From contig JAKSYS010000751.1 of assembly GCA_022925895.1 (NCBI GenBank), positions 1 through 27,584 on the forward strand: a stretch of 27,584 bases of DNA, in the 5' to 3' direction. The notes under the pieces are model-generated. The model made no database searches. It was given only the letters and a program-made list of their open reading frames with translations, and was not told where the DNA came from. Positions 13,607 to 18,570 of this stretch are shown in pieces. Position 1 is the first letter of the stretch. Each line of letters begins with the position of its first letter. Made by a program: the position numbers and the translations under genes. The DNA comes from Fragilaria crotonensis. Its lineage: Eukaryota; Bacillariophyta; Fragilariophyceae; Fragilariales; Fragilariaceae.

Positions 13607-13847
13607 GAGAAGACCGGGCGAGGTATCGAAGAGGACAGCGGAAGTGGATGAATGAAAGGCAGATGAGGGCTTGCGGCTCAAGATGCGGGGTGGTGTGTAT
13701 GGTCCTTGTTGTATGATAACTCCAAATCATATATATATGCATACCAAAATCGGCCAGAGACCATCAATGTTTTCGAAGGATAGGTAGACTTTAAATACCA
13801 TAAAAACAACACTTACGGATGACGTTTTGAACGTTGAAGCACAAAGT

Positions 13848-13927
13848 AAGCCCTTGGTCGCCGGTTCAAACCCGGCCTGGAGTATAGTCTTACTCCTGTA
13901 ACTCAGTGGTCAGAGTGGGGGTCTTAT
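13848..13927 (+). tRNA. Circularly permuted tRNA-Ile(UAU) gene: 3' half precedes 5' half
   Basis: The 3' half (13848-13884) reads: AA, anticodon-stem strand GCCCT (13850-13854), variable TGGTC, T stem GCCGG, T loop TTCAAAC, T stem CCGGC, acceptor CTGGAGT, discriminator A (13884). After 7 bases (13885-13891) comes the 5' half (13892-13927): acceptor ACTCCTG, TA, D stem ACTC, D loop AGTGGTCA, D stem GAGT, G26, anticodon-stem GGGGT, then CTTAT. Rejoined, this is a 73-nt cloverleaf with U8, A14, G15-C48, G18G19, A21, U33, TTC, A58 and A73. All stems pair except one U-U in the acceptor (6-67), with two G-U pairs in the anticodon stem. The loop becomes CTTATAA, anticodon UAU. The exact joint is uncertain by a base; A37 argues for joining after T36. 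A T5 run follows. A normal tRNA cannot be drawn, because each half lacks its partner on the expected side. Confidence 0.85.
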
Positions 13928-13936
13928 GAGAGCTTC

Positions 13937-13941
13937 TTTTT
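13937..13941 (+). terminator. RNA polymerase III terminator candidate (T5)
   Basis: Five T follow the 5' half of the permuted tRNA by nine bases. No run of four or more T occurs from the 3' half to this point, so one transcript could cover both halves and end here. GCTTC just before it (13932-13936) can pair with GAAGC just before the 3' half (13836-13840). Confidence 0.6.
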
Positions 13942-14946
13942 GCACACTCTGAGATGAATGCGGAAGCCAACTTGCATGGATCAGAGGACCGAAGGTAGTC
14001 CACATTTCTTTTTTTCATCATGGTTGTTACTTTAGAGTGTTATTAGATATGTTATTGCAGAGATGCGATGTCAAGGCCAATTTGTATGAACTCACGTAAT
14101 TCTGTGTCTACGCCAGTGCTGTAGGGTAGTTGCACTATGTTACTACCGGTAGTACTAGTAGACCGTACTTATACGGGTACTGAGTACTGGTAGTCTGGTA
14201 CTGTAGTAGTTGCTATCGGTGATGATTATAGCGTTGTATGTCATAATTGGCGTATGATACCTGGTACAAATCGTACTCAGCACTGTACTCAGTATCAGTA
14301 CTTAATATTTAATATTACTTGAAATACGTACACGTCATTCTCGGTATGGTCACGACACTATGACGTTTTCGTGACAAGTTGTAGAATTCTCGTTCTCACA
14401 TAACGTGTCGTGCGTGTGGTGGAGCACGACGACACACGGAAACTTGTTGAAGGGTGGCTCTTTCGTCAGATTGGAACTGTGGTACTCGTAGTACAGTACG
14501 TGTACTGGTGTCGGTCTGTCGAGAGTCGAGAGATCGATCATAGCGACAGATGAGTTGGTTGTTTTCTGATTCATTACCATTTCCTTTTGATTAATCACGC
14601 GTCAACACTCACATACCGAACATCGTGTCGTTGATTTCAATCACCAGAACTCACACGCAGTCACAGTGTTCCTTTTATATTGTAGTGTTGCATCGCCAGT
14701 ATCTCTCGTGATTACAGATTCTTTGAATTTCGCCGGGAACCAACTTGAAATCCTGCATGACATCATCGACAATTACTACAACAGCGACGAGGCCGTGTTG
14801 TTTCGGTTCGGATATTCTGTTTTGCAATTGAACACATCAAGACGCTGGACAAATCAAGAACACCTAGGTATTCACAGGCACTCAAAAAGAGAGAAACAAA
14901 TAGACAGAGACGGACGATCGCTTCGACTAAGATTCACATTGTCCTT
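13942..14946. other. Intergenic region between the permuted tRNA and the CCA-enzyme gene
   Basis: About 1 kb without a recognisable gene. Positions 14140-14310 form a dense GTAC-type repeat cluster with the 14-base palindrome at 14141-14154. The last 300 bases are the upstream region of the CCA-adding enzyme. The shorter stretch 13607-13847 holds the LSM2 5' flank and the presumed promoter of the tRNA (a TTTAAATACC sequence near 13790). Confidence 0.5.
14141..14154. repeat. 14-base palindrome TACTACCGGTAGTA, copy 1
   Basis: This is a perfect 14-base palindrome. An identical copy lies at 22259-22272 and a 12-base match (CTACCGGTAGTA) at 3940-3951. Here it sits inside a GTAC-rich intergenic cluster. 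Confidence 0.85.
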
Positions 14947-17211
14947 ATGGCTGGTATTGATCGACATCGTCGAAGGCAACAATTTGCTTCCCTACCCTTC
15001 ATTGTTTTGCTGGTTATCATGATTTCTCGTCTGATTCCATCGTTCTCAATGGTCATATCCAATTGTCATCGGAGGTCTGCGCCGATGATGATGGCCCTGG
15101 ACTCGAGAACATTGAGATTCTACAGCGGAGAGGATGGGACTGTTGCGACGTTGCTGGGGGAACGCAGACTGGAAATGGCGCATGGAACCACCAGCTCCTC
15201 CATTCAAGGCTCGCGCAACAACAATAACATCAACAACGAAAAATCAGGTACAAACTACAATATAGAATTAACTGAAGACGAGGCTAAGCTCTTTGAGCTA
15301 CTTCGCCAAGTCACGGCCGAAACGAAATTGGGATCCACCTTGCGAGTTGCCGGAGGATGGGTCCGTGATAAGCTCCTTGCGACTCCGGAATTTCAGCGTC
15401 ACCATCACTCGCCACCCGAGAAGCACAAGGCTGGCCGACTAGCGTCTAAATTCCATAAATCATCCCAAGGTTCCATGGGACGCCAGGGGACCAAACTTGT
15501 GATTGAAGACGACACTCATCAACCGGTGGATATCGACATTGCTCTTGATGACATGCTCGGGCGCGAATTTGCAGATCATTTGAACGAATATCTTCAGAAC
15601 CATGGAGAAAAGACAGTTGCGGTCGGTGTGGTCCTCAAGAATCCAGAAAAGTCAAAGCATTTGGAGACCGCGACGATGAAGGTCGGGTCTTTCTGGATTG
15701 ATTTCGTTAACCTTCGTGCAGAAGAATATACTCAAAACAGCCGAATACCCGACATGATGCGTATCGGGACACCCTCTGAAGATGCTTTTCGAAGAGACTT
15801 GACCATCAATTCTCTCTTTTACAACATTAATTCGCAACAAGTAGAGGATTTTACAGGTCGGGGTTTCGATGATTTGAAGCGAGGTGTTGTCGCGACGCCG
15901 ATGGCTCCATTGACGACTCTCCTGGATGACCCTCTTCGAGTTTTGCGGGCGGTGCGATTTGCAGCCAGACTCAGATTTGCCATGGATACTGCCTTGATTC
16001 AAGCTTCCAGGGATGCCAAAGTTCGCGATGCCCTCGCTCAAAAGGTATCTAGAGAACGCGTGGGCGGAGAGGTCGACCTTATGCTTCGATCGCCCGACCC
16101 CGTTGGAGCCATGCGACTTCTAATCAACCTCAACCTTGTCGAAACTGTCTTCCCCATTCGTGAGGTGCTTCCTGAAGAATTCCCAGGGGGTATTTTTATC
16201 TTTACAAATGGTCTGAATGTCCTTTCCACAACCTTTGACTATCTCTGTGACAACAAAAGGAAGCCACCGCTGTGGTGTGAAATAAAGCAACAGTCGACGA
16301 CTCATGGATTTTGCGAATCTACACTGTTGCAGGATGAAGAGGCTAGAAGATTACTCTGGTACGCTGCTTTCTTGAAACCCCTGCACGACTATTCTATATT
16401 GCTTCCCGAAAGAAAGCCTAGTCCGCAAAACGGCAAGAAAGCTAATCGTTCGATAATTTCAAAACTGCTTGTGGATCATCTCAAGCGACCCAGCCGTGAT
16501 GCGGATAACATTGAAAAGATTACGAGAGCAGCTGATGACTTCACCAAACTCATGGGGGCTGGCTTTGACCTCTCTGCGGAGTCAGTTTTGTTGAGTGGTA
16601 TTCGGGTGCATCACGATGTGGGCAGCGTCGGCGATGACTCTGACACTCTGTGCTGTCGAATGGGGAACAAGCTTATTGACAGTGAGACGGAAGACGATCC
16701 TCTCTGGCTGCATGCCATGGAATTCAGACTTCTCACTTCAAAAGTGCTTGGTCGTGTTGGTCATTTATGGAGGGCGGCGTTTGTACTGTCTCTGGTCGAG
16801 GAGCTCGTTTCTGCGACGGACGATGACTTGGAATACAGAATCGAAGGAGATGTGGTAAGTGAATGTCCTTTGGACCTCAACGGCGACGCTAGTTTCTTTA
16901 CGTGTTTCCTCATCGCATATTTTTACCATGTGTTTCAGTTTGAAGAAAGTCAGGAAGAAAGACGGCAAGGCATCATTGATCAGTACGACGCCTTTGCCGC
17001 TGCGCTACAGAAACTCGGTCTGATAGGCGTATGGACCCGAAAGCCGCTTATTGATGGCGACTCCATGAAGGCTGTGCTTCCCAATATCCCTGTTGGGCCT
17101 GGCTTCCGAGAGGTTATGGATGAACAGCAGAGTTGGATGACCACCCACCCTGGAGGAGGAATAGACGCCTTGTCGGCGCACTTGAGGGAAGTTTTTGCAG
17201 ACTTTGCATGA
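14947..17211 (+). CDS. CCA1: CCA-adding enzyme (tRNA nucleotidyltransferase), one intron
   Basis: The enzyme adds or repairs the 3' CCA of tRNAs. Class II poly(A) polymerase-type motifs appear in order: RVAGGWVRD (133-141), the metal-binding DIDIAL (195-200), RRDLTINSL (282-290), DDPLRVLRAVRFAARL (327-342) and ERVGGEVDLML. A GTAAGT...TTTCAG intron of 84 bases (16855-16938) is in frame and stop-free, so a naive reading keeps 28 foreign residues; spliced, IEGDV joins FEESQEERR and the protein has 726 residues. An unusual insert of about 45 residues separates the first two motifs. The N-terminus has a hydrophobic stretch (LPFIVLLVIMISRLI, 16-30) that may be a signal peptide of a plastid-type leader. 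Internal ATGs at residues 35 and 47-49 could give other forms, as eukaryotes must serve several compartments from this gene. Confidence 0.93.
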   Translation: MAGIDRHRRRQQFASLPFIVLLVIMISRLIPSFSMVISNCHRRSAPMMMALDSRTLRFYSGEDGTVATLLGERRLEMAHGTTSSSIQGSRNNNNINNEKSGTNYNIELTEDEAKLFELLRQVTAETKLGSTLRVAGGWVRDKLLATPEFQRHHHSPPEKHKAGRLASKFHKSSQGSMGRQGTKLVIEDDTHQPVDIDIALDDMLGREFADHLNEYLQNHGEKTVAVGVVLKNPEKSKHLETATMKVGSFWIDFVNLRAEEYTQNSRIPDMMRIGTPSEDAFRRDLTINSLFYNINSQQVEDFTGRGFDDLKRGVVATPMAPLTTLLDDPLRVLRAVRFAARLRFAMDTALIQASRDAKVRDALAQKVSRERVGGEVDLMLRSPDPVGAMRLLINLNLVETVFPIREVLPEEFPGGIFIFTNGLNVLSTTFDYLCDNKRKPPLWCEIKQQSTTHGFCESTLLQDEEARRLLWYAAFLKPLHDYSILLPERKPSPQNGKKANRSIISKLLVDHLKRPSRDADNIEKITRAADDFTKLMGAGFDLSAESVLLSGIRVHHDVGSVGDDSDTLCCRMGNKLIDSETEDDPLWLHAMEFRLLTSKVLGRVGHLWRAAFVLSLVEELVSATDDDLEYRIEGDVVSECPLDLNGDASFFTCFLIAYFYHVFQFEESQEERRQGIIDQYDAFAAALQKLGLIGVWTRKPLIDGDSMKAVLPNIPVGPGFREVMDEQQSWMTTHPGGGIDALSAHLREVFADFA

Positions 17212-17226
17212 TATCCTTTGTTGCCA

Positions 17227-18090
17227 TCAATAATCATAGTCACACGTTTCATTGTAGAAGACGCTCGCCAGTGCACCTGGGGCTTCAATGGCCATTTCTG
17301 CGGCCAGTTCATTTTCATGCTTGTGCTCTTGCCTGTCCTTTGCCCGCGACTGGAATGTTGGCAATCGTCCTCGTTGAACATTTGCCACTTGAAATTTGTG
17401 TCCATGAAAGACTCTCTCATGATATCCCGCCCACTGTGTCAAGTGATGCAAAGTGATGCTTAAACAGGATGGCACATCCAGGGGCAGATCTACTGGTTGA
17501 CCGCCAACAGGCGGGATTGCCACATGCGGTACATGAACAAAAAAATCGCAATGTGCGGCCAGCTCCATTGGAAGTCCCTTGTTACTTTTGCTCAAAACGA
17601 CACAGTAGTTACCACTACTACTTTGTGAAAGAAATGGCTTTGTATGGACCGGATACGACAGTGGCAAAGCTGCGCTGCGGCTCGATGGCGTGTTGTTCTC
17701 CTCCAAAGGACCTACAACTCGTATCGAATCATGTTGAATGTTGTGCGCTGATGGGTATCCTGCTGGACTGTAGGCCCCTGCCGCACCGACACACAGGAGG
17801 CCCATGAGTGTCTCGCAATTGCAGCCGCCATTTTCGTCGTTGATGGATCGTCGGAGATACGCCACGGCTTGATTCCATACTGGGAATGCCACAATATCGA
17901 CATGTTTCGATGCCCCATGTGATCCCTCCGTATTACACTTGTCGTACCCAACAAGAATAACTTGAGTGACAGCAAAGGCAGCGGCGCATCGAAGGATGGG
18001 ACCCAAATTGTTGGATTTCTTGGGATTCTCAATCAAAAGGAAAATTCTGGGAGGTAAAAGTGGTGTGGCTGATGCTTCATTGTCGCTCAT
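17227..18090 (-). CDS. SpoU/TrmH-type (SPOUT) RNA 2'-O-methyltransferase
   Basis: SPOUT enzymes transfer a methyl group from S-adenosylmethionine to the ribose of tRNA or rRNA. The product has 287 residues from the ATG at 18090; the frame runs further up only to a TTG. Motif 1 is ENPKKSNNLGPILRCAAAFA (21-40), followed by VTQVILVG. Later come VVLSKSNKGLPMEL (motif 2 region) and the C-terminal VHVPHVAIPPV...LDVPSCLSITLHHL, the SAM-binding trefoil-knot region. Motif 2 is atypical: SKSNKGL stands where many family members have GNEGxGL. The C-terminal 60 residues are charged and not conserved. The target RNA cannot be told from the sequence. The gene is tail to tail with the CCA enzyme, with 15 bases between stop codons, so the two 3' ends must overlap. 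Confidence 0.82.
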   Translation of the reverse strand: MSDNEASATPLLPPRIFLLIENPKKSNNLGPILRCAAAFAVTQVILVGYDKCNTEGSHGASKHVDIVAFPVWNQAVAYLRRSINDENGGCNCETLMGLLCVGAAGAYSPAGYPSAHNIQHDSIRVVGPLEENNTPSSRSAALPLSYPVHTKPFLSQSSSGNYCVVLSKSNKGLPMELAAHCDFFVHVPHVAIPPVGGQPVDLPLDVPSCLSITLHHLTQWAGYHERVFHGHKFQVANVQRGRLPTFQSRAKDRQEHKHENELAAEMAIEAPGALASVFYNETCDYDY

Positions 18091-18570
18091 ATCGTGGTTG
18101 TTATGGGTGTATTTATCTGGGGAGGATGCGTGATATACGTATGATCGGTTGGAGATATCTTGCAATGCCTCGATTACTGTGGGAACTATGCTTTCTCTCG
18201 ACTGGCGTCAAAACTTGGAGGGGTCCGTCGCCAAGTGTGCTGATCCGCCTTACGTTGGGAACACTGGTGATGGATGCAGTATTTCAAATTTCAACCGATT
18301 TGTGCTTTCTCGAAGTGAGTGATCGGTGATCGGTGATCGGTGATCGGTGATCGAACATGGAAGTGGCGCCATGATGGATTCAGAACGTACGACCAACTTA
18401 CGTTATTCGACTACTGTATTTGTACTGTTACCTGGTACTGTAGTACTAGGTACGAGTAGCGGTCCACTAAAGTACATGCATATTTTTATTTTTATAGAAT
18501 ACAAATATGTATGTGTATCATATCGTCACCCTAAGTTGTACATAGGATTGTGCTTGTACATACTTGTGTC
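18091..18570. other. Intergenic region between divergent genes
   Basis: This 480-base gap separates the SPOUT and prolyl-hydroxylase genes. It contains the GTGATCG tandem repeat (18319-18353) and GTAC/TACTGTA motifs at about 18410-18475. The open frame at 18060-18329 has no recognisable content. Confidence 0.5.
18319..18353. repeat. Tandem heptamer GTGATCG, five perfect copies
   Basis: Five exact copies of GTGATCG occupy 35 bases, each containing GATC. It lies in the promoter region shared by two divergent genes and is likely variable in copy number. Confidence 0.9.

Follow-up and report, generated by a model that had tools for sequence, protein, structure and literature searches.

Can a tRNA gene with the 3' half in front of the 5' half be a working gene in the nucleus of a diatom? 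The question is raised by a short unit on one contig (C726) of the Fragilaria crotonensis assembly, which comprises 62,107,879 bases (62.1 Mb) in 881 contigs. This contig with its 27,584 nucleotides is the whole stretch of DNA that was analysed and is called the window below. In the first-pass annotation, the unit had been read as a nuclear tRNA-Ile(UAU) gene of a diatom-like genome in circularly permuted form. This reading was supported by the order of the halves, by the ARAGORN assignment to Ile(TAT), and by a score of 63.2 bits with a model of permuted tRNAs (R1, described below), and direct reading of 13836-13941 verified all parts and coordinates that had been given for it. The permuted gene belongs to the nuclear DNA of a diatom. 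From the sequence we infer that it is probably a working gene, which would be transcribed, would pass through a circular intermediate, would be joined within the anticodon loop and might be essential.

Organization of the permuted gene

The 3' half is located upstream of the 5' half, and direct reading, ARAGORN and R1 revealed no complete tRNA alongside. The unit has the following features:

13788-13808, + strand: TATA-like element ACTTTAAATACCATAAAAACA, a probable RNA polymerase III promoter element, based on its likeness to upstream regions of ordinary tRNA genes
13836-13840, + strand: leader strand GAAGC of the leader-trailer helix (direct reading), pairs with 13932-13936
13847-13850, + strand: TAAG (direct reading)
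13848-13884, + strand: 3' half of tRNA-Ile(UAU), positions 37-73, from A37 to the discriminator A73 (R1 match, ARAGORN on the joined halves, sequence)
13863-13873, + strand: B box GGTTCAAACCC (sequence)
13885-13891, + strand: spacer TAGTCTT between the mature ends, 7 nt, the acceptor loop of the precursor (sequence)
13892-13927, + strand: 5' half of tRNA-Ile(UAU), positions 1-36 (R1 match, ARAGORN with either joint)
13899-13909, + strand: A box TAACTCAGTGG, tRNA positions 8-19 (sequence)
13923-13926, + strand: CTTA (direct reading)
13925-13927, + strand: anticodon TAT (sequence)
13932-13936, + strand: trailer strand GCTTC of the leader-trailer helix, pairs with 13836-13840
13937-13941, + strand: T5, probable RNA polymerase III terminator, 9 nt past the 5' half

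The B box thus precedes the A box, and CCA is not encoded after A73. The seven bases that had been noticed between the mature ends are the spacer TAGTCTT, and the T5 run that had been said to close the unit is indeed present at its end. In the unjoined window, neither ARAGORN nor Rfam at the gathering threshold called a tRNA.

Completeness and isotype of the joined tRNA

Joining of the 5' half to the 3' half results in a tRNA of 73 nt, which ARAGORN called tRNA-Ile(tat) with either of the possible joints. The conserved nucleotides U8, A14, G15, G18G19, A21, U33, C48, U54U55C56, A58 and C61 are all kept. All pairs are formed in the T stem (5/5), the D stem (4/4) and the anticodon stem (5/5, two of them G.U), and six of the seven pairs in the acceptor stem, the exception being a U6:U67 mismatch. 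Therefore, the complete 73-nt cloverleaf with invariant bases and UAU anticodon that had been described before holds for the length, the bases and the anticodon, but contains a mismatch that had gone unmentioned. The yeast tRNA-Ile(UAU) likewise carries a U6:U67 mismatch.

Among 86 distinct ordinary tRNAs, the closest to the joined tRNA was an Ile(TAT) of a viral contig (56 of 73 positions), followed by a Met(CAT) of the plastid-like contig (55/73), the nuclear Ile(AAU) and a Val(TAC) of a viral contig (54/73 each). Overall likeness is thus not decisive for the isotype, and the assignment to Ile is mainly based on the anticodon. The viral Ile(TAT) gene (L073:1782-1856) is part of the 410-kb IMG/VR contig IMGVR_UViG_2799112330_000002, and its acceptor stem is near-identical to that of the joined diatom tRNA.

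Search with a model of permuted tRNAs and controls

R1 is a covariance model of permuted tRNAs that was built from 14 other nuclear tRNAs of the genome, i.e., the candidate locus was excluded. The training tRNAs were rotated at 36/37 and were given random 7-nt linkers. The permuted-tRNA-aware search of the window, which had been suggested at first pass, yielded this locus as the sole match (E up to 10), at 13848-13927 with 63.2 bits and an E value of 2.9e-21, which is rough due to a short calibration. A much looser, hand-written scanner also found only the candidate locus in the window, and in 113 Mb of random sequence from a Markov model (one strand) it had three matches.

As a control, R1 was applied to 37 of 48 loci, the remaining 11 being duplicates or the candidate locus. 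Scores of 62 bits were obtained for two tandem tRNA-Trp pairs (L036, L037) and of 45 bits for a plastid-like tandem Ile-Ala pair. Tandem pairs score high because the 3' half of the first gene is followed by the 5' half of the second, as in a permuted gene. The R1 score is thus proof of the halves, but not of the permutation, which rests on the absence of a flanking tRNA. Ordinary tandem tRNA genes could be ruled out, because direct reading and ARAGORN revealed no other tRNA beside the unit.

Upstream element and probable terminator

The TATA-like element ACTTTAAATACCATAAAAACA resembles the upstream regions of ordinary tRNA genes of the genome. The ungapped score was 16 with the upstream region of tRNA-Arg(TCT) and 13 each with those of tRNA-Thr(CGT) and tRNA-Gln. 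A score of 16 was reached by none of 297 control segments of the window against any of 28 flanks (mean 9.7), the control segments not being matched for A+T content. With at most one mismatch, ACTTTAAATACC occurs once in the window versus 0.06 expected occurrences. The word TTTAAATA lies 46 nt before 13836, and the corresponding distance is 47 nt in one Thr gene and 40 nt in the Arg gene. The exact word TTTAAATA is absent from most of the 28 ordinary tRNA genes, and thus it would be one promoter variant among several.

In ordinary nuclear tRNA genes, a run of four or more T first appears 3-15 nt past the 3' end, as seen in all 28 distinct flanks. In the permuted unit, the promoter-like element and the T5 run are found at the outer ends, and neither is present between the halves, i.e., in the spacer. 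A TTTT run at 13825-13828 suggests that transcription would start after it.

Predicted precursor fold and splice joint

The lowest-energy fold of 13829-13941 has an energy of -36.5 kcal/mol. Besides the leader-trailer helix, it contains the T arm, the acceptor hairpin, the D arm and a helix of GUAAG with CUUAU that sits above the anticodon stem, and the pairing probability of GAAGC 13836-13840 with GCTTC 13932-13936 is above 0.99. When window segments were paired at random, 1436 of 20000 pairs (7%) contained a Watson-Crick helix as long as the leader-trailer helix, and thus the presence of the latter is not significant. Also not significant was the stability of the fold of 13828-13945 (z = -1.23), as 22 of 200 shuffled sequences folded at least as well.

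A canonical bulge-helix-bulge consists of a 3-nt bulge, a 4-bp helix and another 3-nt bulge. The geometry of the predicted fold is non-canonical, i.e., U31 forms a bulge, and cleavage before A13848 would hit the inside of a helix. A canonical motif can be drawn with the A-I pair C32-G13846 and two more pairs, a UAA bulge, and cuts before A13849 and after position 37. The energy of this drawing is -27.3 kcal/mol with the A-I helix and -29.1 kcal/mol without the A-I pairs, compared to -36.5 kcal/mol for the best fold. From the two helices GAAGC/GCTTC and TAAG/CTTA, a structure like the bulge-helix-bulge had been proposed. Each helix was predicted with high probability, but the geometry is not canonical, and the leader-trailer helix is equalled by the mentioned 7% of random pairs.

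The proposed joint at 36/37 is indeed located within the anticodon loop and results in A37, but it is one base off the joint 37/38, which is used by 26 of the 34 genes in Table 1 of PMC3978253. Joining at 36/37 recreates CTTATAA, and the ordinary Ile(AAU) of the genome has CTAATAA. With the canonical joint at 37/38, position 37 would be G13928. An A37 is expected of tRNAs reading ANN codons, in connection with the modification t6A37. It was found in eight of eight ANN-reading tRNAs with loops that were read, i.e., Met, Arg(TCT), Arg(CCT), Asn, Lys(CTT), Lys(TTT), Thr and Ile(AAU). The joint is therefore ambiguous: either cleavage is shifted by one base relative to the usual 37/38 and yields A37, or the tRNA carries G37. 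As ANN readers are expected to have A37 but the canonical cut at 37/38 would give G37, the locus would be a clean test of the splice rule.

Proposed processing pathway

The features of the unit are consistent with the following pathway. RNA polymerase III, directed by the TATA-like element, would start between TTTT 13825-13828 and the leader helix at 13836, and would stop at the T5 run. The transcript is predicted to fold into the T arm, the acceptor hairpin with its 7-nt loop and the D arm within an outer leader/trailer stem. By analogy to the algal pathway as outlined in PMC3978253, the tRNA-splicing endonuclease would cut off leader and trailer at the anticodon loop, a ligase would close the ends at 36/37 (or 37/38) to form a circle, RNase P and tRNase Z would reopen the circle at the spacer, and CCA would then be added. 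Judged from its anticodon, the mature product would read AUA.

The catalytic domain of the tRNA-intron endonuclease (PF01974, above the cut-off) was detected in two reading frames of the genome, one of 148 aa on contig C870 and one of 430 aa on contig C68. The 148-aa frame also matches the EndA-like chain 5x89, and no solved structure matched the 430-aa frame. The search of the genome for the ligase domain PF09511 was empty, and so were its 14 controls.

Copy number and further candidate genes

A BLAST search of the assembly with the joined tRNA retrieved the two halves at the permuted locus and nothing else, and the 3' core of the permuted gene is unique in the assembly within three mismatches. 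The possibility that the unit is a tRNA-derived repeat was ruled out, because it is single copy by search.

An ordinary tRNA-Ile(UAU) gene was not found in the assembly by BLAST and three patterns, and RF00005 was used to score 63 of 2258 candidates. The pattern TTATAA..GNTTCRANNC matched 11 places and CTTATAA..GTTCRANNC matched five, together 12 different places. At nine of the 12 (L051-L056, L062-L064) ARAGORN found no tRNA, and Rfam found none at the six to which it was applied. The matched letters at the remaining three places (C306, C493, C765) are identical to those of a place on C49, which was examined. A D-arm pattern, which would also catch intron-bearing copies, matched two places, the permuted locus and one on C65, at which ARAGORN found no tRNA. 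Outside the reach of the patterns are copies that have T32 and lack G52, copies that differ in the D arm, and copies in which positions 37-38 are occupied by other bases. The count of other tRNA-Ile(UAU) genes that had been proposed as a check thus gave none, but from a search that was not exhaustive.

A tRNA-Ile(AAU) is present in the genome (L040). A tRNA-Ile(AAU) may read AUA after editing of A34 to inosine. In the seven window reading frames that match Pfam families, AUA accounts for 24 of the 149 Ile codons. It is plausible that the permuted gene is the sole source of tRNA-Ile(UAU). The more far-reaching reading, i.e., that it is the only source of an AUA-specific tRNA in this diatom, that its halves are joined at 36/37, and that this tRNA exists only after circularisation, is conceivable but rather doubtful. 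If the permuted gene is the sole AUA decoder, a basic decoding function would depend on a circular RNA step.

The search for further permuted genes covered the given A box and a Ser/Leu-type pattern; other A boxes and breaks in the D loop or the T loop lie outside it. The pattern GGTTCRANNC..TRRCTCAG matched 17 places in the genome, i.e., 12 members of a repeat family, two of the plastid-like tandem Ile-Ala, one each on C73 and C742, and the candidate. R1 did not match the places on C73 and C742 or the one repeat copy that was scored. The Ser/Leu-type pattern matched four places, which were rejected because, by eye from the matched letters, matching acceptor arms are lacking. The members of the dispersed repeat family (12 places, e.g., C211:34654-34697) share a B-box-like stretch followed by an A-box-like stretch.

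Alternative explanations

The unit could be a non-functional relic, silent or with a transcript that is degraded, of a tandem duplication of tRNA-Ile(UAU) that has lost its outer halves, so that only the inner halves remained, 3' of the first copy and 5' of the second. Tandem tRNA pairs exist in the genome and have nearly the same R1 score, the acceptor stem has the U6:U67 mismatch, and the splice motif is non-canonical, all of which would be in accordance with decay. However, apart from the mismatch all stem pairs are formed, the conserved tRNA positions are kept, and direct reading and ARAGORN revealed no remnants of outer halves. In addition, the promoter-like element and the terminator are located at the ends of the permuted unit, and no ordinary copy that could have freed the unit from selection was found, in a search that was not exhaustive. 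A relic is therefore judged to be unlikely. A misassembly of an ordinary gene is even much less probable: the locus is known from a single assembly only, but the rearrangement spans only about 100 bases, and the promoter-like element and the terminator fit the permuted order.

A tRNA mimic of the YrlA type, i.e., a Y-RNA-like molecule in which the arms stay in permuted order and the halves are at no stage ligated to a tRNA, would have a similar architecture. The Rfam family YrlA (RF02553) matches 13834-13941 with 26.3 bits and an E value of 0.0012 for 351 bases, and it shares the order T arm, acceptor-like hairpin and D arm within an outer stem with the diatom locus. A match is explained by the fact that part of YrlA resembles a tRNA whose arms are permuted in the same way. 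Its score is far below the gathering score of 69 bits and also below the 63.2 bits of R1, and the anticodon loop of the diatom locus is intact with U33, UAU and A37. The TROVE domain of Ro60 (PF05731) had no match in the genome; the control was positive in one of 14 genomes, and an intron-split gene could escape the search. Taken together, a YrlA-type mimic is a very improbable explanation, and the preferred reading is that of a permuted tRNA gene.

Comparison with known permuted tRNA genes

Permuted tRNA genes occur in certain red and green algae and in a single archaeon. Table 1 of PMC3978253 (2014) contains 34 permuted genes from six unicellular algae and one archaeon, none of which is a tRNA-Ile gene and none of which is from a stramenopile. 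Permuted genes of type II are tabulated there for Cyanidioschyzon merolae, Ostreococcus, Micromonas and the nucleomorph of Bigelowiella natans. Permuted tRNA genes of the Amorphochlora nucleomorph (PMC4494063) and of Auxenochlorella (PMC12636532) were added later. In the available text of nine articles (PMC3978253, PMC12636532, PMC4090602, PMC13353863, PMC8450103, PMC4494063, PMC4033280, PMC11528492, PMC4929541) no permuted tRNA gene of a diatom or another stramenopile is mentioned; a report elsewhere is possible.

Anatomically, the locus is a type II permuted tRNA gene, in a lineage that is absent from the 2014 table of PMC3978253. Like the algal type II genes described there, it has the 3' half first, a break in the anticodon loop and no encoded CCA. 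It is also preceded by a TATA-like element and followed by a stretch of T, as is described in the same article for the permuted genes of C. merolae. The spacer of 7 nt is within the tabulated range of 1-74 nt. In contrast to the algal genes, the host is a diatom and its assembly comprises 62 Mb, the isotype is Ile(UAU), the best joint is 36/37 instead of 37/38, the splice motif is non-canonical, and the gene is known here from sequence alone. The genes of Thermofilum pendens also have the permuted order and short spacers (1 and 7 nt; PMC3978253, Table 1), but they differ in that the break is in the T loop (59/60), an additional intron is present and CCA is encoded. YrlA differs from the diatom locus, which has 26.3 bits versus a gathering score of 69, an intact anticodon loop and a genome in which the Ro60 domain was not found. 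The locus resembles ordinary tRNA-Ile genes in that ARAGORN assigns the joined halves to Ile(TAT), but the halves are in reversed order in the diatom gene.

If the reading as a working gene is true, permuted tRNA genes would extend to the stramenopiles. On the more far-reaching reading of the locus as the only source of an AUA-specific tRNA, they would reach secondary algae with red-derived plastids, where they would either have arisen independently or have been inherited from the red endosymbiont. In view of the 62-Mb assembly, the link of such genes to extreme genome reduction would be weakened. It would also be a warning that the standard annotation of tRNAs can miss genes in diatoms, as both ARAGORN and Rfam were blank at the permuted locus.

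Similar units in other sequences and neighbouring genes

In other genome contigs, a pattern search for relatives detected five loci, and R1 scored at none of the matched places; a single R1 match of 15.6 bits within these loci overlies an ordinary tRNA-Gly. In viral contigs (IMG/VR), one pattern detected 12 loci and another search none. At least 100 phage records resemble the joined tRNA, and the two that were examined contain ordinary tRNAs.

One viral unit in permuted order (L078:1101-1180, - strand, IMGVR_UViG_3300049454_000030) has an R1 score of 66.5 bits and lies near 14 ordinary tRNAs. It has an encoded CCA, a 5-nt spacer, an A at the site of U33 (by eye) and a YrlA score of 34.9 bits, which is below the cut-off of 69. 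Perhaps it is a phage Y RNA-like molecule. Two further IMG/VR units in permuted order, L068:4835-4937 and L070:832-912, have R1 scores of 40.4 and 37.4 bits, and ARAGORN found no ordinary tRNA in these loci.

About 1 kb downstream of the permuted gene, the protein encoded at 14947-17211 (+ strand) has the head domain of poly(A) polymerases and CCA enzymes and looks like a CCA-adding enzyme. Its relatives reach 95% identity, and the closest that carries an organism name is that of Synedropsis cf. recta (Bacillariophyta) with 70%; no relative was found in the viral contigs. The next reading frame, 17227-18165 (- strand), looks like a SpoU-type RNA methylase. The location of these two genes beside a tRNA gene is probably a coincidence.

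Two further contigs of the assembly appear to be organellar: C881 seems to carry plastid-type genes, and C880 seems to be mitochondrion-like. Among the 120 matches listed for a plastid pheT-like protein is one from Nanofrustulum with 57%. On C880, six copies of one tRNA-Lys(TTT) sequence are present at 69508-75687 (L008-L013), spaced about 1.0-1.4 kb apart.
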